From Asanoa ishikariensis (GTDB lineage Bacteria; Actinomycetota; Actinomycetes; Mycobacteriales; Micromonosporaceae), in NCBI RefSeq assembly GCF_900107455.1, contig NZ_FNQB01000001.1, positions 434,001 through 498,000 of the forward strand: a stretch of 64,000 bases of DNA, read 5' to 3'. A model generated the notes under the pieces. That model worked only from the letters and a program-made list of their open reading frames with translations. It did no database searches and had not been told where the DNA came from. Made by a program: the position numbers and the translations under genes. The first letter of the stretch is position 1. Each line of letters starts with the position of its first letter. This document shows, one piece after another, positions 732 through 57,963 of the stretch.

Positions 732-754
732 CACGCTGATCCTACCGAATCCGA

Positions 755-815
755 TTGACAACCGGAATCTCGATTCCGTAAGTTCGGAGCATAGCGGAAG
801 CGGAATTCGACTTCC
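755..815 (+). promoter_or_regulatory. MFS exporter promoter with embedded TetR-type operator
   Basis: A TTGACA -35 element (755-760) and a TAAGTT -10-like element (779-784) are 18 bases apart. The spacer is almost filled by the palindrome CGGAATC-TC-GATTCCG (763-778, perfect 7-base arms). A second, imperfect palindrome (796-815, outer arms GGAAG/CTTCC, centre GAATTC) follows. A repressor bound in the spacer would block polymerase. The divergent TetR gene is the obvious candidate. Confidence 0.7.
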
Positions 816-845
816 ACTTCAAACCACTCCGGGGGGATCGCGCCG

Positions 846-2312: not shown

Positions 2313-2323
2313 TCGGGGGGACT

Positions 2324-2358
2324 ACGAAGGCCCGCGCCGGTTCGGCGCGGGCCTTCGT
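2324..2358 (+). terminator. Rho-independent-type hairpin after the MFS gene
   Basis: A perfect 15-bp stem (ACGAAGGCCCGCGCC at 2324-2338 pairing with 2344-2358) and a 5-base loop lie 11 bases after the exporter stop. There is no U-tract, as is common for actinobacterial terminators. Confidence 0.85.
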
Positions 2359-2402
2359 GCGCGCGTAGAGGCTCAGTGCGGGCCTACGTATGCGCTAAGG
2401 CC

Positions 2403-2435
2403 CGAGGGCTCGCACCCGGTCCGGGCGAGCCCTCG
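2403..2435 (-). terminator. Hairpin after the GH55-like gene
   Basis: An 11-bp stem, CGAGGGCTCGC (2403-2413) with GCGAGCCCTCG (2425-2435), lies just past the stop of the minus-strand gene ending at 2443. It probably ends that transcript. Together with the 2324-2358 hairpin it separates the two convergent genes. Confidence 0.75.
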
Positions 2436-2442
2436 AGCCGCT

Positions 2443-4203: not shown

Positions 4204-4225
4204 CGACCTGCCTTAACGGGGACGG

Positions 4226-4249
4226 GATGTGAGAGCGCTCTCTCACATC
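4226..4249 (-). promoter_or_regulatory. LacI/GalR-type operator of the GH55-like gene
   Basis: Inverted repeat with 10-base arms (GATGTGAGAG / CTCTCACATC) around CGCT, containing the perfect palindrome GAGAGCGCTCTC (4231-4242). The core matches the CG-centred operators of LacI-family sugar regulators such as CebR of Streptomyces. It ends 22 bases upstream of the start codon at 4203, a position suited to repression relieved by an oligosaccharide. No LacI-family gene lies in the window. Confidence 0.75.
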
Positions 4250-4297
4250 GACCCGTTTCTACACGGTGACGAGGGTGTCGCGCTAGGTGTCGAGCGG

Positions 4298-5089
4298 TCA
4301 GATATCGGTGACGACCGGTGGCTGGGTGCCCTGTGCCGACGGCGGCGGGCCTTCGAAGCGCAGCGCGTGCACGTCGAAAAGGACCGCGTGCTGCACGCCC
4401 AGCGCCGGCCCGCCCATCCCCGCCATCCAGGTCAGGAACGGTCCCGGCTCCGGGCCGGAGCCGCCAAGGCCCTTGGTGTACTCGTCGTGCGCGGCGAGGG
4501 ACGCGATGCCGCGCTGCAGCGGCTCACCGGTGATGTCGACGCCGTGGCTGGGCCGCTCGGCGCCCGCGAAGCAGACGAAACGCACGCCGTTCCAGGGCTC
4601 CAGGCCCTCGTCCTCGAGCTCCGGGAAGATCCACCGGTTGCCCGCGTCGCGGGCCGCGTCGAGGGCGGCCAGGCCGACGGCCCGGTGGTCGGCCTGGTTG
4701 GTCATGCCGCCGATCATCCGGATCGAGAACGCGCCGGAGAGGATCACCTCGGGCTTGTGCCGCCGGATCGACCTGGTGATGTCGCGGCGCAGCGCGGTGC
4801 TGTATTCGACAACGCCGTCGCGGTGGTCGAGGAACTCGACGACGTCGACGCCGACCTGGGCCGCACCGGCCCGCTCCTCCTGCTCGCGCAGCGGCGCGGC
4901 CTCCTTCGGCGACATCGAGTCGATGCCGGCCTCGCCGCGGGTGGCGAGCAGGTAGGTCACCGTCTTGCCCTGGGCCGTCCACCGCGCGATGGCGGAGGCC
5001 GTGCCGTATTCGATGTCGTCCGGGTGCGCGGCCACGGCCATCGCGCGGTCCCAGTCCTCCGGCAGCGCCGGCAGCAGAACGTCAGTCAC
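4298..5089 (-). CDS. PIG-L family zinc deacetylase
   Basis: About 263 residues. Members of this LmbE/PIG-L family remove N-acetyl groups from glucosamine-type or related substrates (MshB and Mca of mycothiol metabolism are relatives). The metal-binding AHPDD motif is near the N-terminus (VAAHPDDIEYGTA), and the second metal histidine is probably in NQADHRAVG. GTG at 5089 is chosen over a TTG two codons earlier. Cytoplasmic, monocistronic. It is too divergent to be assigned to mycothiol synthesis, and nothing nearby supports that. Confidence 0.85.
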   Translation of the reverse strand: MTDVLLPALPEDWDRAMAVAAHPDDIEYGTASAIARWTAQGKTVTYLLATRGEAGIDSMSPKEAAPLREQEERAGAAQVGVDVVEFLDHRDGVVEYSTALRRDITRSIRRHKPEVILSGAFSIRMIGGMTNQADHRAVGLAALDAARDAGNRWIFPELEDEGLEPWNGVRFVCFAGAERPSHGVDITGEPLQRGIASLAAHDEYTKGLGGSGPEPGPFLTWMAGMGGPALGVQHAVLFDVHALRFEGPPPSAQGTQPPVVTDI

Positions 5090-5124
5090 CAGCAAACCCT
5101 AGCCCCGCCTGCGCGTACGCGTCG

Positions 5125-6261
5125 TCAGCGAGGTCGGTGGACATGGCTGGACGTCAGCCCCAAGTGCTGCAGGGCCGACCGCGGTTTGAGGTCTGTCGGC
5201 AACCGGTCGACGTGGTCCCGCCAGATCGTCCGGTCCGCCTCCAGCGCCCGAAGGTAGGACACGCACAAGTCCGGAGTGACGAACAGGCGCCGGCCGTGGG
5301 AAGCCTTCATCGCTTCGGCGATCCGGCGTTTCTCTTCGCCGGTGAGGTTCGCGCGACCGGGTAGCGCCGCGATGATCCGGTCCACCATGGCCCGCCGGTC
5401 TTCGAGGAACGCCGCCCAGAAGTCGTGGTTGGCGTCGTCGACCTTGCCGCCGTCGTCGAGCAGCGCGTAGATGCCCTCGGCGAGGCAGTCACCCAACTCC
5501 TCCTCCCTCGCGCGAGCAGTGGTGCGGAACGGCTCGTAGGCCTCCTGCACCATCCGCCCGGTGACGGCGACGCGGCTCAGACCGTCTTCGCTCAGGAGAA
5601 AGAACCAGTCCTCGTTGTAGATGTCGGGAAAGAACGTCGTGGTCCGGCTGGCCCGCACCGCCATCGCACCGCCGCCGACGAACATGCCCTGCTTGACTCC
5701 GACCGCGCGCAACGCATGGCAAACCACCGAGTTGTCGGGGAAGCCGGCGTTGCGCAGCCCGACCACGCTGAACCGGTCGAGCAGACCGGCGGCGGCGCGC
5801 ATGTCGTCGGGGAGCACGGAACTGATGTCGTCGTCCAGAAACGCGACCCGGTCCCAGCCCAACATCTTCGACAGGGCGAGTCCGAGGTTCCGCTTCATAC
5901 TCAGGTCGCCCCGGCGCCGGAACCTGCCGCTGGCCAGCAACGCCGATGTGGAGAGCTCCGGCAGTGCCACCCCACCGTGTACGTCGGTCGCGATGAGCTG
6001 CACGCCCAGCCGGCGAGCCGCCCGATATGCCTCGTCGGCGTTCGCGCGGAAGCTGCACAGCGCCAGCACCGGGCAACCAACTTCTTTGGCGAGCCGGAGC
6101 GCGTAGCTGAGATAGACCGTGGGCCGGGCCGTCGGCACGATGATCGCGTCGAGGTCGGCGGGCTTGACCGGGCGGTCGACGTAATGCAGCAGGCTGGCGT
6201 GCGACAGGTGATGGCGCGGCTTGGCCGCGATCTCCGGTCGTCGAGCGAGCCGCGCGGTCAC
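5125..6261 (-). CDS. GT-A-fold glycosyltransferase-like protein
   Basis: 378 residues from the GTG at 6261. The upstream extension of the frame is out-of-frame gene sequence. It has a DxD-type metal/nucleotide-sugar motif (FLDDDI, DDD at 143-145), a preceding Rossmann-like segment, and downstream GGGAMAVR and IYNEDWFFL elements typical of GT-A enzymes. I cannot name donor, acceptor or product. The start overlaps the stop of the XRE regulator gene as GTGA, so translation is probably coupled and the pair works together. No signal peptide or membrane helix is seen. Confidence 0.65.
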   Translation of the reverse strand: MTARLARRPEIAAKPRHHLSHASLLHYVDRPVKPADLDAIIVPTARPTVYLSYALRLAKEVGCPVLALCSFRANADEAYRAARRLGVQLIATDVHGGVALPELSTSALLASGRFRRRGDLSMKRNLGLALSKMLGWDRVAFLDDDISSVLPDDMRAAAGLLDRFSVVGLRNAGFPDNSVVCHALRAVGVKQGMFVGGGAMAVRASRTTTFFPDIYNEDWFFLLSEDGLSRVAVTGRMVQEAYEPFRTTARAREEELGDCLAEGIYALLDDGGKVDDANHDFWAAFLEDRRAMVDRIIAALPGRANLTGEEKRRIAEAMKASHGRRLFVTPDLCVSYLRALEADRTIWRDHVDRLPTDLKPRSALQHLGLTSSHVHRPR

Positions 6262-7331
6262 TCCGACCACTCGTGGAGGATGTTGTCGGAGATGGTCCAG
6301 TCCGGCGTGACCACTTTGCCGCCCACGACCTTGACTCGGGCCAGGATGCTGTAGGTCCGCGCCTCGGCGAAGTGGCTTTCCACGTAAGCGGCGTTCCGAT
6401 CGCGGAAGCGGGCGTCGGTCAGCGCACGGACCGCGCCGTACACCCCGCGCCCGAACATGCCGTTGCATACGGTCACGGTCCGCCGAGCGTTGTACGGGTT
6501 CTGGCCGCGGCAGAAATGGGCCACGTCCTCGACCAGGACGCGTCGCGTGCCGTCTTTGGCGATGATCGGCCGATGCTCTGCTCCGGTGGTGCGCACCTCG
6601 AACGCGCCTTCATCCTCGGGGTTGTCGGTGAGCCGCGTCTGTTGCCGGACGGGAGTGCCCAGCGAGTCCAGCACGGCGAGGGTCACCTCGTTGAAGTCGA
6701 TGCCACCGAGCAGAACCAGGTGGGTGGTGAGGTGATCCGGTCTTAACAACGACGTGAGCGTGAACGAGACTTCGCTGCGCGGATTGGCCGCCCGAACGTG
6801 TCCTTGCAGCTCGATCAGGGAGTCCACGTCGGCGAACCGGTAGAGATCCACGTAGTCAGGGCTGGCCGGATCCGAGTAGATGGCGTCCGCGCGCCGCTCG
6901 GGCGGTAGCTCGCCGCAGACGATCGTCACGGGCGCACCGTCGGCGAAATACCATGGCCCGGCCGCGGGCGGATAGTTGTACAACGCGGGCGAGACCTGGG
7001 TGGCACCGGCTGCGCCGGTCGCCGCCGAGCGCAGCGCCGTCAACTCGTCCTCGAGCGCCCGTCGCCGCGTTTGCTCGTCCGTCGACAGGTCGTCCCGCAG
7101 GGCCGCTCGGCCGTCCTCAATAGACCGCGAAGTCGCGAAGAAGTGTGCGTACGCGATGATCCGCTCGGCGGGTGGCACTGCCTCGGCCCGCTCCCAGGAG
7201 GAGACCAGCGGGACGCTGACGCCGAGTGCGCGGGCCACCTGGTGCTGCTTCACCTGCTCTGGCCACTCGCTGGACCGGAGTGCGCGCAGGCGTGCGGCGA
7301 GCGTCTGCCCGGGGTCGCTGTCGCCGGCCAT
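6258..7331 (-). CDS. XRE-family regulator with conserved C-terminal effector domain
   Basis: 357 residues. An N-terminal Cro/C1-type helix-turn-helix (about 12-65; QHQVARALGVSVPLVSSWER) is followed by a short helical linker. A well-conserved actinobacterial domain comes next (about 125-357), with GPWYFADGAPVTIVCGELP, HLVLLGGIDFNEVT, NPYNARRTVTVCNGMFGRGV and a C-terminal TPDWT...HEW. I recall this architecture from many streptomycetes, but no function is established; the second half looks like an enzyme or ligand-binding fold rather than a dimerisation tail. It is first in a two-gene operon with the glycosyltransferase-like gene. Inverted repeats upstream suggest autoregulation. Confidence 0.75.
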   Translation of the reverse strand: MAGDSDPGQTLAARLRALRSSEWPEQVKQHQVARALGVSVPLVSSWERAEAVPPAERIIAYAHFFATSRSIEDGRAALRDDLSTDEQTRRRALEDELTALRSAATGAAGATQVSPALYNYPPAAGPWYFADGAPVTIVCGELPPERRADAIYSDPASPDYVDLYRFADVDSLIELQGHVRAANPRSEVSFTLTSLLRPDHLTTHLVLLGGIDFNEVTLAVLDSLGTPVRQQTRLTDNPEDEGAFEVRTTGAEHRPIIAKDGTRRVLVEDVAHFCRGQNPYNARRTVTVCNGMFGRGVYGAVRALTDARFRDRNAAYVESHFAEARTYSILARVKVVGGKVVTPDWTISDNILHEWSE

Positions 7332-7341
7332 CGCAAGTCTC

Positions 7342-7469
7342 CTTCAGTCAACTTCAGTCAGGGCTGAAGTTGCCGTCTTCGCGTGCATGAGCGCGCATGA
7401 ATGCCACATTCACGGCTAGCGGTGCTCTAAGAAGGACAGTAACAGCCTTGCTTCAGCTCTGCGCTGAAG
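7342..7469 (-). promoter_or_regulatory. Repeated CTTCAG/CTGAAG operators of the XRE gene
   Basis: AACTTCAG-N6-CTGAAGTT (7350-7371) lies 19 bases from the start codon. CTTCAGC-N5-GCTGAAG (7451-7469) lies about 100 bases further up. CTTCAGTCA is also directly repeated at 7342-7350 and 7352-7360. Several copies of one half-site before a helix-turn-helix gene suggest cooperative autoregulation. The actual binder is inferred. Confidence 0.6.
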
Positions 7470-7578
7470 TTTAGCCTTTGGCTTAAGCGAAGTTACTGAA
7501 TCTTTACGAGAGGAGGTAAATCGCGGAGAGCCTAGCAGTTGTCGTCCCGGCAGGCGACGGCTGCGACAGGGCAAAAGG

Positions 7579-7608
7579 AGACACCCTCGGCGGCTACCGA
7601 GGGTGTCT
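7579..7608 (+). terminator. Stand-alone hairpin before a small membrane protein
   Basis: A 12-bp stem, AGACACCCTCGG (7579-7590) pairing with CCGAGGGTGTCT (7597-7608), with loop CGGCTA. It lies 40 bases before the start of the 76-residue membrane protein. No gene ends just upstream on the plus strand, so it may attenuate that gene's leader or end a short non-coding transcript. Confidence 0.6.
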
Positions 7609-7648
7609 TCGAAAACAGCTCCTGCGGGTCTAAGGCAAGGAGTCCGTC

Positions 7649-7879
7649 ATGTCCACGGTAACCGCTCTGTCCACCCTGGCCAAGGGTACGAGTGCCACCC
7701 CTGTCATCGTCGCCGTCCTCGCGTTCATGATGATCGCGGCATTCCTGTTCTTCCGGCAGTTCGGCGAGGTCATCGCGCATGCCGTGCAACTGCTCCGGAT
7801 CGCGATCACCGCGCTCTTCACGGCCACCCTGCTGGTCGGAGTGGCGGTCGTGATGGTCGTCGTGGCGGTTCGCGCATAA
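7649..7879 (+). CDS. Small membrane protein, function unknown
   Basis: 76 residues, with two hydrophobic segments (about 18-36 and 48-74) separated by a short polar stretch (FFRQFGEVIAHAVQLLR). No recognised family. ATG at 7649 is preceded by an AAGGAG ribosome site (GCAAGGAGTCCGTC). Third-position GC is high, supporting real coding. Stand-alone gene before the GNAT gene, with 43 bases between. Confidence 0.6.
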   Translation: MSTVTALSTLAKGTSATPVIVAVLAFMMIAAFLFFRQFGEVIAHAVQLLRIAITALFTATLLVGVAVVMVVVAVRA

Positions 7880-26960: not shown

Positions 26961-27731
26961 ATGATTTCGATGGATGCCGGTGAGGCGCTGCGCCTCGACT
27001 CTGTTCGCAAGGTCTACGGGACGGCCGACAACCCGGTTACCGCACTCGACGGGGTGTCGTTGCGGCTGCCGACGGGTACGTTCACCGCGATCATGGGCCC
27101 GTCCGGTTCAGGCAAGAGCACGCTGCTCCAGTGCGCCGCCGGCCTGGACCGGCCCACCGAGGGCACCGTGGCGATCGCCGGCCAGCCGATCCCCAAGGGC
27201 AGCGAAGCGGCCGTCACCCGCTTCCGGCGCGACCGGATCGGCTTCGTCTTCCAGCAGTTCAACCTGCTGCCAACACTGACCGCCCTGGAGAACGTCACGC
27301 TGCCGCTACGACTGGCCGGCCGAAAGATCGACAAGAAGCGCTGCGCCGGGCTGCTCGCCCAGGTCGGCCTCGGCGACCGCATGAACCACCGCCCGGCGCA
27401 GCTTTCCGGCGGGCAGCAGCAGCGGGTGGCGATCGCCCGAGCACTGGCCAGCTCGCCGGCGCTGATCTTCGCCGACGAGCCGACCGGCGCACTCGACACC
27501 CGCTCCGCGCGGGACGTGCTGGCGCTGCTCGCCACCGCGGTCCGGGATCACGGCCAGACGGTCGTCATGGTCACCCACGACCCGGCCGCGGCCGCGTACG
27601 CCCACTCGGTCGTCTTCCTGGCCGACGGCCGGATCGTCGGCGAACTGGCCCGGCCCACGGCAGACGCCGTCGCCGAGCAGATGACCCGCCTCACCGACGC
27701 AGCCGCCCGGCACGCCCCGGTGGGGGTGTGA
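26961..27731 (+). CDS. ABC transporter ATP-binding protein (MacB/LolD-like)
   Basis: 256 residues. Walker A GPSGSGKSTLL, Q-loop FVFQQFNLLP, signature LSGGQQQRVAIAR, Walker B LIFADEPTGALD and H-loop VMVTHDPAAAA are intact. This subfamily pairs with FtsX-type permeases, and the only one nearby is the divergent 24259-26763 gene. ATG 26961 is used; an ATG at 26970 is possible. Its 3' end is 32 bases from the convergent lipoprotein gene. Confidence 0.92.
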   Translation: MISMDAGEALRLDSVRKVYGTADNPVTALDGVSLRLPTGTFTAIMGPSGSGKSTLLQCAAGLDRPTEGTVAIAGQPIPKGSEAAVTRFRRDRIGFVFQQFNLLPTLTALENVTLPLRLAGRKIDKKRCAGLLAQVGLGDRMNHRPAQLSGGQQQRVAIARALASSPALIFADEPTGALDTRSARDVLALLATAVRDHGQTVVMVTHDPAAAAYAHSVVFLADGRIVGELARPTADAVAEQMTRLTDAAARHAPVGV

Positions 27732-33788: not shown

Positions 33789-35207
33789 ATGGCGGCACGC
33801 CGCCCGCAAGAACTGCCCAGCTCCACCCCCTCGTTCGCCGACCTCGGGCTTTCGGCCGCGCTCATCGCGCCGCTGGCCCGTGCCGGCGTCACCGCACCCT
33901 TCCCCATCCAGGCCGTCACGCTGCCCGACTCGCTCGCCGGCCGCGACGTGCTCGGGCGTGGTCGCACGGGTTCCGGCAAGACGTACGCCTTCGTCCTGCC
34001 GCTGCTGGACCGGCTCGCCCGCGAGAACAAGCAGCGCCGGCCCGGCCGGCCGCGCGCGCTGATCCTGGCGCCGACCCGCGAGCTCGCGACCCAGATCGAG
34101 GCGACACTCGTACCGCTGGCCAAGGCGCTTTCCCTGCGTACCGTGACCATCTTCGGCGGCGTCGGCGCGGGTCCGCAGATCACCGCCCTGCGCAACGGCG
34201 TAGACATCGTCGTCGCCTGCCCCGGGCGCCTCGACGACCACGTCCGCAACGGGCACGCGCGGCTCGACGCGATCGAGATCACAGTGCTCGACGAGGCCGA
34301 CCACATGGCCGACCTCGGCTTCCTGCCCGTGGTCAAGCGGTTGCTCGACCAGACTCCGCGGACGGGTCAGCGCATGCTGTTCTCGGCGACGCTGGACGCC
34401 GCGGTCGACGGTCTGGTTCGGCGCTTCCTGAACAACCCGATCACCCACAGCGTCGACTCGGCGAAGTCGCCGGTCGTCAAGATGGCCCACCACGTGCTGC
34501 ACGTGCGCCACGACGACCGGTTGGCGGTGCTGACCGATCTCACCTCGGCTCCCGGCCGCACCCTGGTCTTCACCCGCACGAAGCGGGGCGCGAAGGCGCT
34601 CACCCGTCGGCTCGTCGCCGGTGGCGTGCCGGCCGTCGAGCTGCACGGCGACCTCGCACAGGGCGCGCGTACCCGCAACCTCAACGCCTTCACCGAGGGC
34701 AGCGTGCAGACGCTGGTCGCCACCGACATCGCGGCCCGCGGCATCCACGTCGACGACGTCGCGCTGGTCATCCACGCGGATCCGCCGGTCGAGCACAAGG
34801 CGTACCTGCACCGTTCCGGTCGCACGGCCCGCGCCGGCGCCTCGGGCATGGTGATCACCCTGATGACCGACAGCCAGGTCGCTGACGTACGCCAACTGAC
34901 CCGCGAAGCCGGCATCCGGCCCACGACGACGCGGCTGGGCCCTGGCGACCCGTTCCTGGCGGAGCTGGCCCCGGGCGAGCGGACGTTCGTCAACCCGCCG
35001 CCGACCCCCGAGCGGGAGACCATGCCGCGGCAGCGCCGGACCCCCGGCCGCCGGGCACCGCAACCCACCCGGGACGCTGCGCCGGCCCGTGCCGCCAAGC
35101 CGGCTCGCACCGGCCAGGGTGGCCAGGGCCAAGGCCAATCAACCGCCGGCTCCCGGGGCGGCAACGCCGCGACCTTCTCCAGCCGCAGCCGGGTCGGTCG
35201 CCGCTGA
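33789..35207 (+). CDS. DEAD-box ATP-dependent RNA helicase (RhlE-like)
   Basis: 472 residues. RecA-like core (about 15-370) with Q motif FPIQAVTLP, motif I GRTGSGKTYAF, Ia APTRELATQ, II DEAD (LDEADHM), III SATLDA, IV TLVFTRTKRGAKAL, V ATDIAARGIHVDDV and VI HRSGRTARAG, all intact. The C-terminal 100 residues are basic and disordered (RRTPGRRAPQPTRD, GGQGQGQ), typical of RNA-binding tails. Probably works in cold-stress RNA unwinding or ribosome assembly. Its TGA stop abuts the TCA of the convergent TetR gene. Confidence 0.94.
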   Translation: MAARRPQELPSSTPSFADLGLSAALIAPLARAGVTAPFPIQAVTLPDSLAGRDVLGRGRTGSGKTYAFVLPLLDRLARENKQRRPGRPRALILAPTRELATQIEATLVPLAKALSLRTVTIFGGVGAGPQITALRNGVDIVVACPGRLDDHVRNGHARLDAIEITVLDEADHMADLGFLPVVKRLLDQTPRTGQRMLFSATLDAAVDGLVRRFLNNPITHSVDSAKSPVVKMAHHVLHVRHDDRLAVLTDLTSAPGRTLVFTRTKRGAKALTRRLVAGGVPAVELHGDLAQGARTRNLNAFTEGSVQTLVATDIAARGIHVDDVALVIHADPPVEHKAYLHRSGRTARAGASGMVITLMTDSQVADVRQLTREAGIRPTTTRLGPGDPFLAELAPGERTFVNPPPTPERETMPRQRRTPGRRAPQPTRDAAPARAAKPARTGQGGQGQGQSTAGSRGGNAATFSSRSRVGRR

Positions 35208-48791: not shown

Positions 48792-49724
48792 TCAGGCAGT
48801 CGCCGATTCGAGCAGGGCGAGGGTGCCGAGCGTCATCTGGTCGCGGATCCGGCTGACCGAGGCTTCCCATTGGCGGGTGAAGCCGGGCCGGCGTTCCAGT
48901 GACTGCCAGACCGGCTGCACCGCCTCGTCGACCCGGGCCGCCGGCATCCACAGGTGCAGCAGGGTGTCGATCGCCGGGCGCAGCCGGGCGATCCGCTGCG
49001 CCCGGGTGCCCGGCCCGGTGAGGCTCGACTCCATCAGCGCCAGCAGGGTGGTGAGCAGCCAGTCGTGCAGCGCGAGATCTTCGCAGAGGTCGACGATCGC
49101 GCCGACGTGTTCGCGCGGCACCACGAGCTCGAGCACCCGCAGCGTCGGCGTCGCGACCCGGAAGGTGCCGGTCGCCTCCACGCCGGGCTCGTCGGTGGGT
49201 GTCACCACCCAGCGCATGTGCGTGCGCTGCGTGCGAAACGGCGGGTGCCGGTCGAGCCGGGTCGAGCGCTGCACCGCGTCGAGCGTCCGCCCGCTGATCG
49301 CGCCCAGGTCGAGGGTGCCCATCGGCTGGGAGGCGCCCGCGAAGCCGCGGGCGATGTCGCCACCGACGGCCTTGCCGATCGCCTCGATCGTGCCCGGCCT
49401 GGTCAGGTAGTGCGACCAGGAGAGCCGTCGGTTGGCGGTGCTCTTGACCACGACCGCGTGCCCGGAGCCCTGCGCCACATGCCCACCGGTGATCGAGGCA
49501 CGGGAGACCACCGTGCCGACCCCGCGGATGACCTTGCCGGAGGCCGCCGGTAGCCGGCAGTCCACACTGGTCAACAGGTTCGGTGAGACGGCATACGCCA
49601 TCGGCCGCTCGGAGCGGCGTACCTGCTCGCCGACCAGCAGGTTGAGCACCTCCGCCGTGGCATCCCAGGGCAGCGAGGTCGAATTCTGCAGAAGTCCGGT
49701 GTGGACCTCGCCAAACGTGAGCAT
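48792..49724 (-). CDS. SCO2521 family protein
   Basis: 310 residues from the ATG at 49724, behind a GGAG site (an ATG two codons up lies too close to it). MLTFGEVHTGLLQNSTSLPW, SERPMAYAVSPNLLTSVDC, RGVGTVVSRASITGGHV and SHYLTRPGTIEAIGKA match what I remember of the SCO2521 family, one member of an actinobacterial cluster conserved as SCO2521-SCO2525. No function is known and no catalytic motif is visible. In the usual clusters it accompanies SCO2522-2524; here a giant STAND gene lies between. Confidence 0.72.
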   Translation of the reverse strand: MLTFGEVHTGLLQNSTSLPWDATAEVLNLLVGEQVRRSERPMAYAVSPNLLTSVDCRLPAASGKVIRGVGTVVSRASITGGHVAQGSGHAVVVKSTANRRLSWSHYLTRPGTIEAIGKAVGGDIARGFAGASQPMGTLDLGAISGRTLDAVQRSTRLDRHPPFRTQRTHMRWVVTPTDEPGVEATGTFRVATPTLRVLELVVPREHVGAIVDLCEDLALHDWLLTTLLALMESSLTGPGTRAQRIARLRPAIDTLLHLWMPAARVDEAVQPVWQSLERRPGFTRQWEASVSRIRDQMTLGTLALLESATA

Positions 49725-49908
49725 GTCCATCTCCGTGCGCCGAACGATAGCGGCTGAATCACATCCCATGGTCGACCCGATAGGCAAGGGCGCCGCGCGG
49801 AATGCCACCCAGACGATACTTTGATCAGTCCCGATGCCAGGGAACCCGAAGGTTGCCAGATGTTGGTACCGTAACGGCGCGTGTCGCTCGCGTAATCGAG
49901 GAGCCGCG

Positions 49909-52900
49909 TTGACCAAGGTCTACGTCTCAGCAACGTTCCGTGATCTAGAAGAGTGCCGTTCGGCCGTCAAGCTGGCGCTCCGCAGGTTGCGGGTCGAAGA
50001 CGTGGCCATGGAGTCCTATGTGGCCGAAGATCGACGTCCGGTCGAGCGCTGCCTCGAAGACGTCGCCGAGTGCGACCTTTATGTCGGCATCTTCGCCTGG
50101 CGCTACGGCTTCGTCCCGCCCGGCTACGACCGGTCGATCACCGAGCTCGAATACCGCCAGGCCGAGGCGATGGGCAAGCCCTGCCTGATTTTCCTCCTCG
50201 ACGAGGAAGCGCCGTGGCCGCGGGTGCACATCGACCGGGGTGGTGAGGCCGAGCAGATCGAGGCGCTGCGCAGCGAGCTCGTGGTCCGGCACATGTGCAG
50301 CACGTTCACCGGGCCGGGCGACCTGGCCGCGCTGGTCACCGCCGCGGTCGCGAACTGCCTGGCCGACATCGGCCGACCGACCGGCCCCCTCCAGTCGCTG
50401 AGCGCGGAGACCCTCAAGCGCTACTACGACCGCCTCCACCAGCAGTACGGCGGCCTCGACCTGGACGCGCTGACGCCACCCCAGCGCGACGAATACCTGC
50501 AGATGCGGCTCACCTCGGTGTTCATCGAGCAGTCCGTGCGCGAGGACCCGCCGCCGGTCGAGCTGCCCCGCGAGTGGTGGCAGCGGATGCAGTACGAGGG
50601 CCACCTCGAGACCGAGGACGTGCCCGACGAGGTCGACCCCGACGAGCTGGCGCTGCTGCACAAGGCCTACCGGGCCAAGCCGTTGCGCAGGCTGTTCGAC
50701 ATCGTCGCCGCGCCCGACAACCAGGCGATCGTGCTGCTCGGCGATCCCGGGTCGGGCAAGTCGACCGCCGCCCGTTACATCGCGCTCGCGCTGTCGCAGA
50801 ACGGCACCCCCGTCGACGACCGGCTCGGCCCGCTCGACGGGCACCTGCCGCTGTTCATCGAGCTGCGCTCCTACGTCGCGCTCTACGCCGAAGGCAAGTG
50901 CAGCAACTTCGTCGACTATCTCGACCACCGCGCCGGCCTCGACGGTCTCGGCCTGGAGCGGGCGGCGTTGCTGCGCTACGTGACCGGCGGCGGCCCGGCC
51001 GTGGTCATCTTCGACGGCCTCGACGAGATCTTCGACAAGCGGCGCCGGGAGGCGGTGGCCAACCAGATCGCCGCCTTCGCCGGCGAGTTCCCGCACGTGC
51101 GGGTGATCGTCACGTCCCGCATCATCGGGTACGCCCGGCGGGTGCTCAGCGAGCTCGGCTTCGCGCACTTCACCCTGCAGGACCTCGACGACAACCAGAT
51201 CACCGAGTTCCTGGCGAGCTGGTACGACCTCGCGATGAACGACCGCCCCGGCGACTCGGCGGCCCGCCGGGCCCGGCTCCTGGCGGCGATGCGGCACTCG
51301 CCGTCGATCCGTGAGCTGGCCGGCAACCCGATGCTGCTGACCATTCTGGCGATCATCGGCAAGCACCAGGCGCTGCCCCGCGAGCGGTGGAAGCTGTTCG
51401 ACCACGCGGCCTCCGTGCTGGTCGAGCACTGGGACATCAACCGCCACCTCCAGGATCAATACGAGAGCCCGGGCTTCATCGACGCCGAGGACAAGAAGGA
51501 GCTGCTGCGCCGGCTGGCGTACAAGGTGCAGAGCGGCGAGCGCGGTCTGGCGGCCAACTACGTCAGCGCCGAGGACCTGAGCGAGGTCTTCGAGGAATAC
51601 CTGGCCGAGCGCTACCAGAAGGACCCGGCCGAGGCGCGCGCCATCGCCCGCTCGATGATCAACCAGTTCCGCGAGCGGAACTTCATCCTGAGCCGCTACG
51701 GTCCCCACCTCTACGGCTTCGTGCACCGCACGTTCCTCGAGTTCTTCTGTGCCGAGGCGGTGGTCGGCAAGTTCAAGCACGACCAGCAGTGGCCGTTCAG
51801 CCGGCTCAAGGACCTGTTCGTCGAGCACTGGGCCGACCCGTCCTGGCGCGAGGTGCTCAGGCTGGTCGCCGGCGCCCTCCACGAACGACACACCGCGCAG
51901 TTGATCTCGTTGCTGGCGACGAACGTCAACCATCCGTGGCCGGCCGGTGCCTTCGCCCAGCCGCCGTGGAACCTGGCGCTGGCCGCGCAATGCCTCGCCG
52001 AGGTGCGCAACCCGCACACCGCCGTGTCGGGCCCCGCGCAGGACCTGCTGCGCCGGATCATCCTGCTGATCGAGCACTGCGTCTCGATCGACGACCGCGA
52101 CACGATGGCGCTGATCGAGACGGAGATCCTGCCCGCGGCCCGCACGATCGGCGCCACCTGGCCCGGCGGCCAGATCTACCTCAACTGGTACAGGCGCCGC
52201 GGCGTGCGGCTGATCTGGAGCTCGGTGTCGGCCTACGCCGCCCAGCTCGCCGCGATCCTGGCACCACCGTCGGAGCACATCGAAGACCTGTTCAGCACGG
52301 TGCTCAGCGCGATCGACGACCGCTGGGCGTCGTACGCGGCGGTCGCCGGGCTGGCCGAGCTCGCGCAGGTGGCGAGCACCGCGGCCAACCGCGGCGCCTA
52401 CCAGTTGGCCCTGACCCGGGCCGGCGAGGAGCTGATCCGCCGGGCCCGCGACGACGCGTACGCCGGGGTGCGACTGGCCGCGGTCGAGGCGCTCGGCGAG
52501 CGGTTCGGCACCGATGCCCGGGTGCGTGACGTGCTGCTGGAGCGGGCCACCGTCGACGGCTACGCCGCCGTCCGGTTGGCCGCCGTGCGTGCCCTCGGTG
52601 AGCGGTTCCGCGACGAGTCGGCGGTCCGCCGCCTACTACTTGACCGCACCCGCCGCGACGGCAACGCGGGTGTGCGCCGCACCGCCGTGCAGATGATGGA
52701 GCGGCTGCCGTACGACGAGACGGTCCGCTCGGCACTGGTCGACCGGGTGCGCACCGACCGCGACGCAGAGGTGGTGGCCGTCGCCGCCCGCGCGCTCAAC
52801 GACTGGGGCCTGGGCTACGAGCACCTGCGCGAGGTCCTGATCGAGCGGATCCGGGCCGAGCCGGACGGTGTGGTCCGCCGCGCTTCGGTGCGCGTACTCG

Positions 52901-54246
52901 CCGATCGGCTCGGCTCTGGTCAGCCCGTTCAGAGCCTGCTGACCGCGCTGTTGCACGACGACCGCGACGCCGGCGTGCTCAGTAGCGCGGCCAAGACGCT
53001 GGTCGAGCGCTTCGACGCGGCCGAGACGGTGAAGAGCCTGTTGATCGAGCGCACCGGCCGGGACCCGGACGAGATCGCCCGGCGGGCCGCTGTGCAGATC
53101 CTCCGGGAGCACTTCCGCGCCGACACCGAGGTGCACACGGCGCTGGTCGAGTGCGCCCGGCGGGATCACTCGGCCGAGGTGCGGCTGGTCGCCATCCGGG
53201 CGCTGACCGCGGCGCTGCCCGGGTTCGCGCCGGCGACCACGGCCCTGGCCAAGATCGCGCACACCGACACCGACGCCGCGGTCCGGCTGGCCGCGACCGA
53301 GGCCCTGGTGAAGAAGATCGGCCTCGACGCGACCGTCTGCGCGGTGCTGTCGCGGCTGGTCGGCGAAGACCCCGACGCGACGGTACGACGCACGGCGGTC
53401 GAGGCCCTGGCCGAGCGCTGCGGCGGCGACACCCAGGTCCGGCGGGAGCTGCTCGACCGGGCCCGGCAGGACGCCCACGCCGAGGTCCGAGGTGCCGCCG
53501 TCCGGGCGCTGGCCCGGCATGCGGCCGCCGACCCCGAGGTGATCGCGCTGCTCCTGGAGCGCACCCGGGACGATCCCGACGGCCAGGTCTTCGCGGCGGC
53601 CGCCAAGGTGGCCGACGACGGCACCCGCAGCGTGATCACGGCTCGGGTGCAGTCGGACGCCAACCCTCGGGTACGCGAGGCGGCCGCGCACGCGCTCCAG
53701 CCGTACGCCGCCGAGCCGGAGGTGCGGGAGATCCTGCTCGACCGGATCCGCCGCGACCCGGACGCACTGGTGGTCACCGAGGCCGCCGTCGCCCTGGTCG
53801 CCGCCGGCATCGACGACGAGCACCGCGACCTGCTCGCGCTGCGGGCGACCGGCGACGACGAGACCGTGCGCGCCGCGGCCCTGCGGGCACTCGGTGAGTC
53901 GTTCGGCGGCGACCCGGCGATCCGCGCGCTGCTGATCGAGGCCGTCCGCCGGGACAGCGACCTACGGGTGCGCCGCGAAGCGCTGCGGGTGCTGGGCGAA
54001 CGCCTCTACGCGCACGAGGAGGTGCGCCAGATCCTGGTCGACATGGTGCGCGACGGCGACTGGTCGATCCGCGAGGCGTCGGTGCGGGCGCTGTGCGAGC
54101 GGTTCGGCGGCGACACCGAGATCCGGCGGCTGCTTGTCACACTCGCCAGCACCGACGACGACCGCAACTTCCGGCGGCTGGCCGGACAGGCGCTGAGCTG
54201 GCTGCCCGGCGCCGACCCCGAGCACCTGCCCGACATCGGAGACTAG
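49909..54246 (+). CDS. DUF4062-NACHT-HEAT STAND NTPase (NLR-like)
   Basis: 1,445 residues from a TTG at 49909, chosen for the GAGGAG site 6 bases before it and because the protein then begins exactly at the DUF4062 fold (TKVYVSATFRDLEECR). Order: DUF4062, a TIR/SLOG-like signalling domain (about 3-150; DRSITELEYRQAEAMGKP); linker; NACHT NTPase with Walker A LLGDPGSGKST (276-286), Walker B VIFDGLDE (366-373), VIVTSR (399-404) and the C-terminal FVHRTFLEFFCAEAV (604-618); helical linker; then about 18 HEAT repeats of about 34 residues to the end (846-1445). STAND proteins of this plan are known or suspected antiphage sensors. Divergent from the SCO2521-like gene, with a 3-base gap to the convergent SCO2522-like gene. 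Confidence 0.88.
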   Translation: MTKVYVSATFRDLEECRSAVKLALRRLRVEDVAMESYVAEDRRPVERCLEDVAECDLYVGIFAWRYGFVPPGYDRSITELEYRQAEAMGKPCLIFLLDEEAPWPRVHIDRGGEAEQIEALRSELVVRHMCSTFTGPGDLAALVTAAVANCLADIGRPTGPLQSLSAETLKRYYDRLHQQYGGLDLDALTPPQRDEYLQMRLTSVFIEQSVREDPPPVELPREWWQRMQYEGHLETEDVPDEVDPDELALLHKAYRAKPLRRLFDIVAAPDNQAIVLLGDPGSGKSTAARYIALALSQNGTPVDDRLGPLDGHLPLFIELRSYVALYAEGKCSNFVDYLDHRAGLDGLGLERAALLRYVTGGGPAVVIFDGLDEIFDKRRREAVANQIAAFAGEFPHVRVIVTSRIIGYARRVLSELGFAHFTLQDLDDNQITEFLASWYDLAMNDRPGDSAARRARLLAAMRHSPSIRELAGNPMLLTILAIIGKHQALPRERWKLFDHAASVLVEHWDINRHLQDQYESPGFIDAEDKKELLRRLAYKVQSGERGLAANYVSAEDLSEVFEEYLAERYQKDPAEARAIARSMINQFRERNFILSRYGPHLYGFVHRTFLEFFCAEAVVGKFKHDQQWPFSRLKDLFVEHWADPSWREVLRLVAGALHERHTAQLISLLATNVNHPWPAGAFAQPPWNLALAAQCLAEVRNPHTAVSGPAQDLLRRIILLIEHCVSIDDRDTMALIETEILPAARTIGATWPGGQIYLNWYRRRGVRLIWSSVSAYAAQLAAILAPPSEHIEDLFSTVLSAIDDRWASYAAVAGLAELAQVASTAANRGAYQLALTRAGEELIRRARDDAYAGVRLAAVEALGERFGTDARVRDVLLERATVDGYAAVRLAAVRALGERFRDESAVRRLLLDRTRRDGNAGVRRTAVQMMERLPYDETVRSALVDRVRTDRDAEVVAVAARALNDWGLGYEHLREVLIERIRAEPDGVVRRASVRVLADRLGSGQPVQSLLTALLHDDRDAGVLSSAAKTLVERFDAAETVKSLLIERTGRDPDEIARRAAVQILREHFRADTEVHTALVECARRDHSAEVRLVAIRALTAALPGFAPATTALAKIAHTDTDAAVRLAATEALVKKIGLDATVCAVLSRLVGEDPDATVRRTAVEALAERCGGDTQVRRELLDRARQDAHAEVRGAAVRALARHAAADPEVIALLLERTRDDPDGQVFAAAAKVADDGTRSVITARVQSDANPRVREAAAHALQPYAAEPEVREILLDRIRRDPDALVVTEAAVALVAAGIDDEHRDLLALRATGDDETVRAAALRALGESFGGDPAIRALLIEAVRRDSDLRVRREALRVLGERLYAHEEVRQILVDMVRDGDWSIREASVRALCERFGGDTEIRRLLVTLASTDDDRNFRRLAGQALSWLPGADPEHLPDIGD
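52444..54243 (+). repeat. HEAT-repeat-coding tandem array (unit about 102 bp)
   Basis: About 18 diverged in-frame units of about 34 codons. Consensus features are D-x-D-A-x-VRxAAVxALxERFGxD, then a VRxLLLER helix. Units vary from 30 to 34 residues; the one near 53575-53640 is shortest. The repeats arose by internal duplication but are now dissimilar at DNA level. Confidence 0.85.
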
Positions 54247-54249
54247 GAG

Positions 54250-55200
54250 TTATTCCCCGATGAAGACGTAGTCGATCCGGTCGACCAGCTCTTTCGGCAG
54301 CTCCATGTTCTCGCCGCGCATGCGGGCGAACACCTGGTCGAGCACCGTCGGGTCGATCGAGACCTGGTTGAGGATCGTGCGCACCGCTAGCTCGACCTGG
54401 AGGAACCGCGAGCCCAACACGGAGAACGTGCGGTAGGCGCTGAACGCGGCCGCGCCCGGGTTGAGCTGCACGACGGCAGGCAGCTTGTCCCAGTCGTCGG
54501 GGAGCTCTTCGACCTGCCACGGCGTCGTGACCACCTCGCCGTTGTGGCGCAGCAGGCCGAGCCGGATGAGCTGCCAGACCGCGGCGAGGAACGGGCACGA
54601 CCAGCGCCGCGAGCCGTTCTCGAGGTCCCACAGCTCGACGTCGACGAAGATCGAGTGCCGGTTGGCCGCGTTCTGCATCGGTGGCAGCCAGCCCTTGTCG
54701 GCCATCGCCGGTATCGCGATCGAGTTCGGCGAGCGCTGGCCGTTGCACAGCCAGCCGGTCTCGGTGGTCGGCGGCCGGATGCCGTTGCTGCCCGGCACCG
54801 GGTCGGTGACCAGCGCCTGCTCGACCAGCTTGGCCAGCGGCACCTCGTCGGCGACCGCGCAGCCGGACTCGCGCGCCAGGTAGTCGATCACCAGGCCGCT
54901 CTCTTCGGCGGCGGCCACCAGCATCGGGATCACCTCACGCGGCGTGCTGAACCGCGAGAAGTAGTCGTCGACGAGGAAGCAGGTGCTGACCCGCGGGCGG
55001 TTGCCGCCCGGCTTGGTCACGACGGTGCGCGCGGCGGACTGTGCCCACGGCGCGATCCGGCGAAAGTGCCGGCGCATCGAGTCGATGCCGCCGGCGAACT
55101 CTTCCATGTAGAGGTGGCCCAGCTCGATGGAAAGGTGCGAGAGCGGAACGCGTTCGACGCTCCGCTGAGCGACCGCCTCTTCGAATGCCACTCCGGTCAC
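54250..55200 (-). CDS. SCO2522 family protein
   Basis: 316 residues from the GTG at 55200, which overlaps the stop of the SCO2523-like gene (GTGA). Landmarks are VERVPLSHLSIELGHLYMEE, STCFLVDDYFSRFSTPREVI and ETGWLCNGQRSPNSIAIPAM. These match my memory of the SCO2522 family, unknown function, always with SCO2521/2523/2524. No membrane helix. Last gene of the SCO2524-2523-2522 operon; its stop is 3 bases from the stop of the convergent STAND gene. Confidence 0.72.
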   Translation of the reverse strand: MTGVAFEEAVAQRSVERVPLSHLSIELGHLYMEEFAGGIDSMRRHFRRIAPWAQSAARTVVTKPGGNRPRVSTCFLVDDYFSRFSTPREVIPMLVAAAEESGLVIDYLARESGCAVADEVPLAKLVEQALVTDPVPGSNGIRPPTTETGWLCNGQRSPNSIAIPAMADKGWLPPMQNAANRHSIFVDVELWDLENGSRRWSCPFLAAVWQLIRLGLLRHNGEVVTTPWQVEELPDDWDKLPAVVQLNPGAAAFSAYRTFSVLGSRFLQVELAVRTILNQVSIDPTVLDQVFARMRGENMELPKELVDRIDYVFIGE

Positions 55201-56114
55201 AGCGTCTCCCAGGCCGCATCGTCGACAATCTTTTTAGCCAACGAGTCGAACTGTTCCAGCGTCTCACGGTTCGCGATGCGCCGCGACCACACGTCGTTAT
55301 CCGAAATAAGCTGTTCACGCCATTGCAGGACAGGGTCGAGCGGGATCGAGCCAAGTAGCAGCGTGCGGCCGACCTTCCGGCTGCTGGCCAGTTCGGACAG
55401 ATCCCGGTCGACGTCGCGCAGCCAGGCGATCTGCGCGGGCCGCAGGCCCTCGAGCTCCGGCGAGTCGGGGTTGACCACCGCGGTGCGTACGAAGCGCAAC
55501 GAGTTGGCCAGTTCCTCGCGGTCGTGCCCGTGGTTTTCGCCGGTGTGCAGGATGCCCCGCTCGCCGTAGACCAGGCCGGACGCGGCGAGCACGTGCTGCC
55601 GGGTCCAACGGTGGAAGACCAGCCACCGCGTGCGGATGTTGCGCAGTGCCTCGTTGGCGGTCGCCGCGAGCACCATCTCGGTCGCGTAGGAGCGGCCGGC
55701 GCTCAGGTCGACCAGGCAGAGGTCGAACTCCTCCTCCAGGTGCAGGAAGAGCCGGGCGCAGCGCTCGGTGTTCTCCTTGGTGATCGGGAACTCGCCGCCG
55801 CCGCTGTCGCCGGGCAGCAGCACCAACCGGCCCGCACCCGGCGGACGGCTGCGCAGGCTGGACCGGTCGGACTCCTGCCAGATCTCCAACCGCTGCGGGT
55901 CGGCGACCATGCCGTGCAGGTAGGAGTGCAGACCACCCTGGGTCGTGCCGTGCAGCGTCGTAGGAATGTTGAAGATGGCTCCGGACGTCGGCGATCCGAA
56001 GTCGAAGTCGAGATAGCAGACGTCACTGCCCTGCAACGCACTCCGATAGAGGATGTTGCTGCTGGTGACGGAGCGACCGGTGCCGCCCTTGTCGGAGGTC
56101 GCGAAGATCAACAT
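55197..56114 (-). CDS. SCO2523 family variant P-loop ATPase
   Basis: 305 residues. A ParA/MinD-like P-loop protein: FATSDKGGTGRSVTSSNIL at the start has the signature lysine of the deviant Walker A (KGGxGK) but Arg for the second lysine (KGGTGRS). FDLCLVDLSAGRSYATE and YLDFDFGSPTSG supply Walker A' and B-like parts. The substitution gives the family its 'variant P-loop' label and may alter ATP turnover. Sits between the SCO2524- and SCO2522-like genes, coupled to the latter by GTGA and 4 bases after the former. Confidence 0.78.
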   Translation of the reverse strand: MLIFATSDKGGTGRSVTSSNILYRSALQGSDVCYLDFDFGSPTSGAIFNIPTTLHGTTQGGLHSYLHGMVADPQRLEIWQESDRSSLRSRPPGAGRLVLLPGDSGGGEFPITKENTERCARLFLHLEEEFDLCLVDLSAGRSYATEMVLAATANEALRNIRTRWLVFHRWTRQHVLAASGLVYGERGILHTGENHGHDREELANSLRFVRTAVVNPDSPELEGLRPAQIAWLRDVDRDLSELASSRKVGRTLLLGSIPLDPVLQWREQLISDNDVWSRRIANRETLEQFDSLAKKIVDDAAWETL

Positions 56115-56118
56115 TTGG

Positions 56119-57963
56119 TTAGCCCGCCTCGGTCACGTCACGCCTCGCGGCGGCCAGTTCGTCCAGCGCGATGAGCACCTGGGCCGCTAGGACGGCGGCG
56201 GTGCCTGGGCGCTCCGGCAAGATCTCGCGGGCCCGGGACAGGTGGATCGACGCGACCTTGAGTGTTTCGCGCATTCTCGGGCCGGCGTCGCCGGCGCCCG
56301 AGAGCAGTTCCATGTCGTACAGGTGCTCGGCCTCGGTGAGCAGGTCGAACGCGTAGTTGCCGAGGCGCGGACTGCGCAGTGGTGGCCGGTTGAGCATGTT
56401 GGCGGTGGTCACCAGGCCCTGCACGACGCGCTGGGTGTAGTACCAGGACGGCTTGTCGTAGCGGGTGGTGAGCTGGCCGAACACCGAGGTCGGCTGGTCC
56501 CACAGGTTGCGGCCCGGCCCCTTGTCGAGCCGGCGCTTGTTGAGGTGCTCCCAGGTGCGGTCAGCCAGGTCGAGCATCCGACTGCGGGCCTCGGCGTCGT
56601 TGATCAGGCCGCCGATCACCGTCGTGCGCTGGAAGAGCAGGGCGGCGAACTCGGAGACCGTCCACAGCAGTCGGGCGTCACCGGCGTCTTCACTGCCGAC
56701 CAGCGGCACGAGTACGCCCGGCGCGTGCAGGCTCAGCGCGGGGTCCGTGTCGAACGGGCGGCGGGTGACCCGCGCGCGGTTCGCCAGCTCCTCCAGCACG
56801 GTGCCGATCCGGCCGAGCTCGGTGTCGGTGCCGCGCTCCTGGACGAGGCCTTTGACGGCGAGCGAGGTGACCAGGAGCGTGTAGTAGTCCGACGCGTCCT
56901 CGTCAGTGGTGCGCCACGGGATGTCTTCGACCGGCCAGCGTTGGGCCTGCCCGAACGTCGCCATGGTCGACCAGTAGGCACGGGTCAGCTCCCACCGGAG
57001 CTGGAGCGCACGGGTAAGTCGCTGCTGCTCCTCGTTGAGCAGACCGAGAACCCGGGTGCGTTCGGAGAAGAGGTCTTCAATCGCGTCGACGGCGATGACC
57101 GTGAAGTAGAGGTACGGCGCGTCCTGTGCGAAGCCCTTGGGCTGTTGGCCCACCGGCTCGTTGGTCTCGATCGGCGGCGCGCCGTTGACGATGCCCCAGG
57201 ACCAGCCGACCTCGAACAGCCTGTCCGGGCTGTCGATGTCGCCGACCTGGCCGGAACCGATCAGGACCTCGCGGAAGCTGGCGATGGTTTCCCGCAGGTC
57301 CCGCCGGACCGCGCTGACCACCTGGCGCTGTGGCAGGTTCTCCTGGTTGATCATGGTGGTGAGCGCCTGGCCGTATGCCGAGTCGACGTCGAAGACGTTG
57401 ACCGTGAAGCTGCGCAGCAGCCCGACCATGGCGGCACTCAGCCGGGTGCTGGCCTGCTGCTCCAGCGACTCGATCTCCTTGCGGTTCTCTTCGCGGTTGG
57501 CGACCGACCTAAGGACCTTGAGGAAACCGAGTACGGACAGCGACAGCGTGACCGACATGGCGAACGAGTCCACGATGTCGAGCCTGAGCTGCTCTTTCGA
57601 GGGCTGCGCCGGGCCGGTCGAGCTGAAGTAGGACGAGCCGGAGAACAGCGGCGTGCCGTCGGGGTCGCTGTAGCGGTCGAAGTATTCCCGGAGGATCCCG
57701 ATCAGCGTCTTCGGAATCTCGGTCGCGTTGCCGAGCGGGCGTAGCGCCCGGATCATGTCTTCGGCTGTCTCGTCCGGACGGTCCAGTTTGAACGACTCGA
57801 CCTTGGTCGCCGGGGTCAGGATGCAGAGCAACTGCTCCGCGTCACCGATGGAGTTGGGCGCGTCGCGGCCGCCGAACTTCCATTTCTTTTCCCGTTCTGA
57901 CCAGGACGAACGCACCGTCGCGTTCCAGATCTCCAGCAGCTGTTGACGAGGCTGCATCCTCAT
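56119..57963 (-). CDS. SCO2524 family protein
   Basis: 614 residues. MRMQPRQQLLEIWNATVRSS, SIGDAEQLLCILTPATKVES, SSYFSSTGPAQPSKEQLRLD and a long helical remainder. It lacks recognisable catalytic motifs; the middle (about 165-230) has alternating charged helices. Matches from memory the SCO2524 family. First gene of the operon that runs through SCO2523 and SCO2522. Start ATG 57963 or 57957. Confidence 0.75.
   Translation of the reverse strand: MRMQPRQQLLEIWNATVRSSWSEREKKWKFGGRDAPNSIGDAEQLLCILTPATKVESFKLDRPDETAEDMIRALRPLGNATEIPKTLIGILREYFDRYSDPDGTPLFSGSSYFSSTGPAQPSKEQLRLDIVDSFAMSVTLSLSVLGFLKVLRSVANREENRKEIESLEQQASTRLSAAMVGLLRSFTVNVFDVDSAYGQALTTMINQENLPQRQVVSAVRRDLRETIASFREVLIGSGQVGDIDSPDRLFEVGWSWGIVNGAPPIETNEPVGQQPKGFAQDAPYLYFTVIAVDAIEDLFSERTRVLGLLNEEQQRLTRALQLRWELTRAYWSTMATFGQAQRWPVEDIPWRTTDEDASDYYTLLVTSLAVKGLVQERGTDTELGRIGTVLEELANRARVTRRPFDTDPALSLHAPGVLVPLVGSEDAGDARLLWTVSEFAALLFQRTTVIGGLINDAEARSRMLDLADRTWEHLNKRRLDKGPGRNLWDQPTSVFGQLTTRYDKPSWYYTQRVVQGLVTTANMLNRPPLRSPRLGNYAFDLLTEAEHLYDMELLSGAGDAGPRMRETLKVASIHLSRAREILPERPGTAAVLAAQVLIALDELAAARRDVTEAG

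Follow-up and report, generated by a model that had tools for sequence, protein, structure and literature searches.

The window analyzed here is a 64,000-nt stretch of the Asanoa ishikariensis genome (GCF_900107455.1, contig NZ_FNQB01000001.1, positions 434,001–498,000), and all positions are given in window numbering. It encodes a 1445-residue protein of the signal transduction ATPases with numerous domains (STAND) type, with the domain order DUF4062-NACHT-HEAT, on the + strand (49909..54246). This gene lies among four genes on the − strand: SCO2521 (312 residues, 48792..49730) on one side, and SCO2522 (316 residues, 54250..55200), SCO2523 (55197..56114), and SCO2524 (614 residues, 56119..57963) on the other. 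An earlier note on this DNA had assigned the four flanking proteins to the SCO2521, SCO2522, SCO2523, and SCO2524 families and had described a 4.3-kb DUF4062-NACHT-HEAT gene on the opposite strand to its neighbors. Both descriptions hold, with the flanking proteins scoring far over the NCBIfam cut-offs (NF040565, 389 bits against 150; NF040566, 466 bits against 200; NF040564, 505 bits against 200; and NF040567, 881 bits against 300) and the domains of the STAND protein confirmed by Pfam. SCO2521–SCO2524, referred to below as the core, is a conserved cluster with no assigned function found in the open-licence literature, where we found no link between SCO2521 and a STAND protein and where SCO2521 is mentioned once in passing, in a passage of one article (PMC11472566).

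The SCO2521 and STAND genes diverge from an intergenic region at 49731..49908. The longest SCO2521 open reading frame (ORF) starts at 49916 and encodes 374 residues, and because the family profile covers it only from residue 69, the start is probably the ATG at 49730 or 49724 and not 49916. For the STAND gene, the longest ORF runs from the ATG at 49834, and we read the TTG at 49909 as the probable start, with GGAG preceding it and DUF4062 following directly. The two divergent starts are thus ~180 bases apart. Alignments of this region (six same-genus rows and seven multi-genus rows) show TGATCA in 6/6 rows from Asanoa and TTGATCAA in 4/6, with a nearly invariant stretch of ~40 bases after TGATCA in the six same-genus rows; the columns beside the STAND start are partly conserved across genera in the seven-row alignment. 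TGATCA and the adjacent stretch could form a possible operator. At the other end of the gene, 3 bases separate the STAND stop (54246) from the end of the SCO2522 ORF at its stop (54250). This gap, which the earlier note had offered as evidence that the gene fits the locus tightly, is present in the window but measures ~4, 10, 235, 700, and 985 bases in five same-genus relatives (tblastn ends minus both stop codons). Because it is not conserved, the tight fit is by itself no argument.

DUF4062, a TIR-like domain, occupies residues 3–85 of the STAND protein (49915..50163, +; PF13271, E 1.2e-21, 77.1 bits against a cut-off of 24.7). The NACHT ATPase domain spans residues 273–438 (50725..51222, +; PF05729, E 6e-7, 29.8 bits against 26.7) and, together with Walker A (GDPGSGKST, residues 278–286) and Walker B (VVIFDGLDE, residues 365–373) motifs that are kept with small substitutions in 24 aligned rows, identifies the protein as STAND/NACHT. 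HEAT repeats, a probable sensor, fill residues ~821–1445 (52369..54243, +; PF13646, E 4.3e-57, eight stretches). The NCBIfam models for EruA and HyoA gave no match to the protein up to E 0.01. In 18 rows from outside the genus, the mean match to the window residue is highest in DUF4062 (0.77) and lowest in the HEAT region (0.42–0.43), which is the most variable part. The gene is under purifying selection: 15 pairs from the window's genus give a whole-gene ratio of nonsynonymous to synonymous substitution rates (dN/dS) of 0.10, and 21 pairs from the Plantactinospora-type genus give 0.24. These ratios are lowest for DUF4062 (0.045 and 0.098, respectively) and highest for the HEAT repeats (0.12 and 0.30). 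A conserved DUF4062 with variable HEAT repeats is what one would expect if the effector were fixed while the sensor drifted.

Passages of a preprint by Osinski et al report DUF4062 as a TIR-like NADase, with NAD+ depletion by KpSwz in abortive infection and with TEP1, in which DUF4062 stands beside NACHT and is accompanied by WD40, being active (PMC13174449). The same passages describe assays of NWD1, NWD2, and NPHP3 alongside TEP1 and claim activity for TEP1 only; bacterial DUF4062 genes are called patchy (PMC13174449). The window domain matches the PDB chains of both TEP1 (11gz, E 3e-5) and KpSwz (10wc, E 4e-4). Its Glu79, the candidate catalytic residue, aligns with the only nearby glutamate of KpSwz (in SFTE, taken as E97 with a guessed numbering offset), and Glu81 is invariant in 24/24 rows. 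By analogy, the window DUF4062 is a probable NAD-destroying head. Because the domain is reported as an NADase and the window copy matches both solved chains, the protein may be divided into HEAT repeats that sense, a NACHT domain that assembles, and a DUF4062 that destroys NAD+.

The genome searches scored at most the best 10, 5, or 4 candidates per genome, and absence means absence among those candidates; gene calls in relatives are our own ORF and hidden Markov model calls, not annotations. SCO2523 is present in 6/6 genomes of the genus, 114/200 of the family, and 29/296 of the class, the window's genome included, with its nearest relatives in Asanoa, Plantactinospora, and Micromonospora. 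A search with the first 680 residues of the STAND protein found 40 DUF4062-NACHT loci in the 200 family genomes (split or cut copies counted once), and 34 of the 40, in 33 genomes, adjoin SCO2523. Among the five best candidates per genome, 33/114 SCO2523-positive family genomes have the linked STAND gene and 0/86 SCO2523-negative ones have any DUF4062-NACHT gene (Fisher 1.4e-9, shared ancestry ignored). Linkage was read from contig coordinates only in nine of the 33 genomes (G006, G066, G084, G149, G158, G167, G182, G190, and G198), and the STAND gene is cut by a contig end in G066 and split in G158 and G195. DUF4062 was also found alone (G077 and G197), and some SCO2523-negative genomes have NACHT relatives that lack DUF4062. 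The presence of the STAND gene at the SCO2523 locus in 6/6 genus and 33/200 family genomes rules out a strain-specific insertion and bears out the claim that the gene belongs to the cluster. A survey of core loci, as the earlier note had proposed, found a DUF4062-NACHT-HEAT gene in 25 of 101. These 101 are the window and 100 fetched from ~144 SCO2523 places, the remainder being mostly further species of the sampled genera; a second, named set of 80 out of 450 SCO2523 loci overlaps them.

All 25 STAND loci fall within one 28-row clade (99%) of the tree built from SCO2523 and SCO2524, where the exceptions are L054 (outermost) and L081, each with a membrane gene, and L088, with nothing. Three changes suffice on the tree, for instance one gain, one loss, and one replacement, a count that does not separate gain from loss. 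Distances between STAND proteins follow those between core proteins closely (Mantel r 0.975 for 24 loci and 0.947 when thinned to 14), and 0/5000 permutations were as high. A single recruitment followed by co-inheritance would explain the distribution of the STAND gene. The gene is head-to-head with SCO2521 in 25/25 loci, with a DAO-like gene between them in 6 and absent in 19. A common order of loci with a membrane-type gene is 2522> PLD< 2521< DAO>, and the order in L068 is 2522> 2521< DAO> STAND>. Inversion of an L068-type 2521-DAO-STAND block would give the order seen in L028, L034, L073, L082, and L087, and loss of DAO would then give that of the window. The embedded position of the STAND gene, which the earlier note had emphasized, therefore looks like a derived state that probably arose by inversion, and not the primary one.

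Proteins of other kinds take the place of the STAND protein in other lineages. Within 1.5 kb of the core, the 101 loci hold a DUF6879-like gene (60 loci), a DUF4062-NACHT-HEAT gene (25), another STAND gene (3), or neither (13). No locus has two of these output types (0/101), nor, by eye, does any in the named set of 80. The DUF6879-like protein, found in 60/76 of the loci without the DUF4062 STAND gene, is membrane-anchored, with one hydrophobic segment in 28 of 56 rows and two in the other 28. The match of its C-terminal part to DUF6879 is sub-threshold (22.8 bits against a cut-off of 23.9, one protein), HxKxxxxD is present in 1/56 rows, and "phospholipase D (PLD)-like" is our own reading of that sub-threshold match. 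The second STAND type, in L029, L050, L061, and the named locus L148, has ORFs of ~1640–1800 residues and is head-to-head with SCO2524 by gene order. Read on L029 only, its domains are phosphoesterase-like (weak NCBIfam matches), NACHT, pentapeptide, and WD40, and the L029 protein gives weak matches to the anti-phage models DS9_1 and EruA. In L021 the slot holds a different protein with two hydrophobic segments. In L104 and L108, which have neither output type, what by eye looks like a membrane-spanning protein is convergent with SCO2521 at its 3′ side. L060 carries an extra set of DUF6879-like, DAO, 2523, and 2524 genes without 2521 and 2522 beside a full module, and in L051 and L173 a full module is accompanied by another SCO2524 and an additional copy of SCO2525.

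Within the core, SCO2523 is a variant P-loop protein of the MinD/ParA-like type. Its KGGTGRSVT motif is invariant in 16 rows, and because arginine stands for the P-loop lysine, hydrolysis is doubtful and the description of the core as an uncharacterized ATPase complex loses its footing. SCO2523 scores 37.3 bits (E 3e-9) against the KGGVGR family NF047398, under the cut-off of 90 and thus not a member by score, and is related to the KGGVGR domain by profile comparison (hhalign 84.5%, 143 columns). By analogy, the best external hint to its role comes from passages of Kaur et al, 2020, which describe actinobacterial conflict systems whose AP-ATPases are coupled to inactive MinD/ParA-like domains (PMC7159879). 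AlphaFold models show a mostly beta N-terminal half and a helical C-terminal half for SCO2521 (mean predicted local distance difference test score, pLDDT, 91.6) and an alpha/beta make-up for SCO2522 (mean pLDDT 81.4). Profile searches of PDB sequences with SCO2521, SCO2522, and SCO2524 gave no credible match.

We interpret the STAND gene as a lineage-specific output module of the nucleotide-binding leucine-rich repeat (NLR) type, a probable NADase receptor, that has joined the conserved core, and consider this reading about as probable as its negation. Its domain content, purifying selection, co-inheritance with the core, and, in the loci examined, constant divergence from SCO2521 are observed, as is the different output-like protein in other lineages; from these we infer a role of the locus in defence. 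In such a mechanism, the HEAT repeats would hold the NACHT ATPase off until triggered by a phage product or by a disturbance of whatever the SCO2521–SCO2524 complex watches. The NACHT domains would then exchange nucleotide and assemble, bringing the TIR-like DUF4062 heads together so that NAD+ is hydrolyzed and the cell is stopped or killed. The core might license the STAND protein or be guarded by it, with SCO2523 acting as a nucleotide-binding adaptor or switch and not as a motor. A broader proposal, which we put forward tentatively and at slightly less than even credence, is that SCO2521–SCO2524 could be the control core of an unrecognized actinobacterial conflict system with exchangeable outputs: a DUF6879/PLD-like membrane-anchored protein, the DUF4062-NACHT-HEAT NADase receptor, or the phosphoesterase-NACHT-WD40 receptor, the output varying by lineage while the core with its MinD-like switch stays. 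The travel of the core with an NLR-like probable NADase, and with other outputs elsewhere, gives a concrete and testable hypothesis for its role. If correct, the interpretation also gives TEP1 and other animal DUF4062-NACHT proteins a bacterial counterpart in layout, and conserved partner genes would allow study of how such receptors are controlled.

Several observations weigh against the interpretation as an output module of the core with a part in defence. Six of the 40 family loci lie away from SCO2523, and the class sample has four unlinked DUF4062-NACHT loci in three genomes (G448, G412 twice, and G465), two of which have no SCO2523 match. Because unlinked loci exist in the class, the DUF4062-NACHT architecture either predates the link to the cluster or does not depend on it. 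The STAND gene is missing in L088 and in the named relative L123, replaced by a DUF6879-like gene in L081, and broken into two frames and cut short in L055 (the same contig as L125, Paractinoplanes aksuensis), where all four core genes were found as single matches; in G006, SCO2523 is split and the STAND gene open. Glu79 is present in 22/24 rows, with histidine in L073 and L082. The exclusivity of outputs reduces to only four independent pairs (p 0.25), and we have withdrawn it as a statistical claim. In addition, of the 54 other proteins called in the window, 49 were covered by PADLOC, which recognized no defence system among them.

The claim of a defence system was not borne out in its original form, as the scoring that the earlier note had suggested found no defence island around the STAND gene among those 49 proteins, and no SCO2523 relative was seen on PLSDB plasmids at E 1e-30, on phages at E 1e-10, or among 52 pattern stretches in IMG/VR contigs, which at these limits leads us to reject a recent mobile defence gene. 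The five genes of the locus gave only weak PADLOC matches (best E 5e-4). Ten PADLOC models were matched at E 1e-10 among the 49 proteins, one protein each: six fall on a helicase-like protein (33789–35204), two on an ABC-ATPase-like protein (26961–27728), both names being our own reading, and the remaining two are mad2 and C3a156. Pfam matches to MoxR, vWA, or VMAP were absent from the 10 window proteins scanned. The STAND query found 14 plasmid records, none covering 80% of it, and the seven best are without the DUF4062 part. In Sphaerisporangium sp. TRM90804 (L158), SCO2521–SCO2524 and a DUF6879-like gene lie on a contig titled plasmid, which counts against a non-mobile view of the core. A role in stress surveillance or development fits equally well as one in defence, because SCO2525 is reported in passages on Streptomyces coelicolor as morphogenetic and as needed for normal growth (PMC6344877, PMC11472566).

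A serious rival comes from development: the core may be a developmental or house-keeping complex, and the STAND protein, instead of acting against phages, may guard it or serve as a developmental switch for programmed arrest. SCO2525 is the next gene in many relatives of the locus, and a single passage lists the operon sco2521–sco2526 within the HupS regulon (PMC11472566). The frequency of the core in the family (114/200, with 29/296 in the class), its absence from the phages, plasmids, and viral contigs searched, and the STAND gene in 6/6 genus genomes, whereas bacterial DUF4062 genes are reported as patchy in the preprint passages (PMC13174449), also speak for this rival. However, SCO2525 had no match at E 1e-20 in the window's genome and 16 others of the 27 searched, so that it was rejected as part of the window's system; 267/296 class genomes lack an SCO2523 match, which is odd for a house-keeping part; and immune executioners have this same DUF4062-NACHT-repeat make-up. 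On balance we judge this rival unlikely.

We find it more improbable still that the STAND gene is a positional passenger, joined beside SCO2521 once and inherited without working with the core. A single acquisition can account for the whole distribution, similar STAND genes occur elsewhere without the core, and L088 and L123 have kept the core but do not have the gene. Against this, divergence from SCO2521 is kept in 25/25 loci, in both block orientations and with or without DAO, and other output-like proteins occupy the same place in other lineages. The six unlinked family copies (G024, G061, G104, G112, G119, and G167, corresponding to L189–L194), with no core genes in the 18–19 kb fetched around them, comprise five ORFs of 1802–2193 residues and one split copy, and none among the five best candidates per genome is of the usual type of 1.4–1.5 thousand residues. 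That DUF4062 is non-enzymatic here, serving assembly in a NACHT-HEAT scaffold or regulator, is the least probable alternative, for although Glu79 is histidine in L073 and L082 and activity is claimed only for TEP1 among the animal proteins assayed in the preprint passages (PMC13174449), no part of the protein is more conserved than DUF4062 (0.77) or under stronger purifying selection, and Glu81 is invariant in 24 rows.

The SCO2521–SCO2525 cluster of Streptomycetaceae has the same four core families as the window, and loci from Kitasatospora and Actinacidiphila differ from the window in that their genes all point the same way and SCO2521 is followed by a DUF6879-like membrane gene. Bacterial NACHT anti-phage proteins form the class known as bNACHT. 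Members such as EruA and HyoA share the NLR-like layout and NACHT core with the window protein but differ in effector and partner genes. The animal proteins TEP1, NWD1, NWD2, and NPHP3 have DUF4062 next to NACHT and, in several, a repeat region, according to passages of the preprint (PMC13174449), whereas the window protein is bacterial, has HEAT in place of WD40, and has no vault. Swarozyc, described in the same passages as an anti-phage NADase with DUF4062, shares the N-terminal TIR-like DUF4062 domain with a glutamate at the aligned place, but in KpSwz a short winged-helix auxiliary domain, which binds the phage portal, stands where the window protein has NACHT and HEAT, and over half of bacterial homologs are reported beside known defence genes, while the window gene is tied to SCO2521–SCO2524 with no island recognized (PMC13174449). 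FxsA-type KGGVGR systems and VMAP-linked AP-ATPases of actinobacteria likewise couple a variant MinD/ParA-like domain to a STAND NTPase; in the passages describing them the STAND/TPR protein carries the domain as a fusion, beside peptide-processing genes and the TIR-like FxsC, whereas SCO2523 in the window is separate and accompanied by SCO2521, SCO2522, and SCO2524 (PMC7159879). The window's genome itself fuses a KGGVGR domain to an FxSxx_TPR protein, in an FxsA-type system outside the window (L196, G000:C2:596000-608000, positions 415–7808) that includes the FxSxx_TPR-KGGVGR protein, an FxsB radical SAM protein, and two FxsC-like proteins that narrowly miss the cut-off of 130 bits (126.7 and 127.3).

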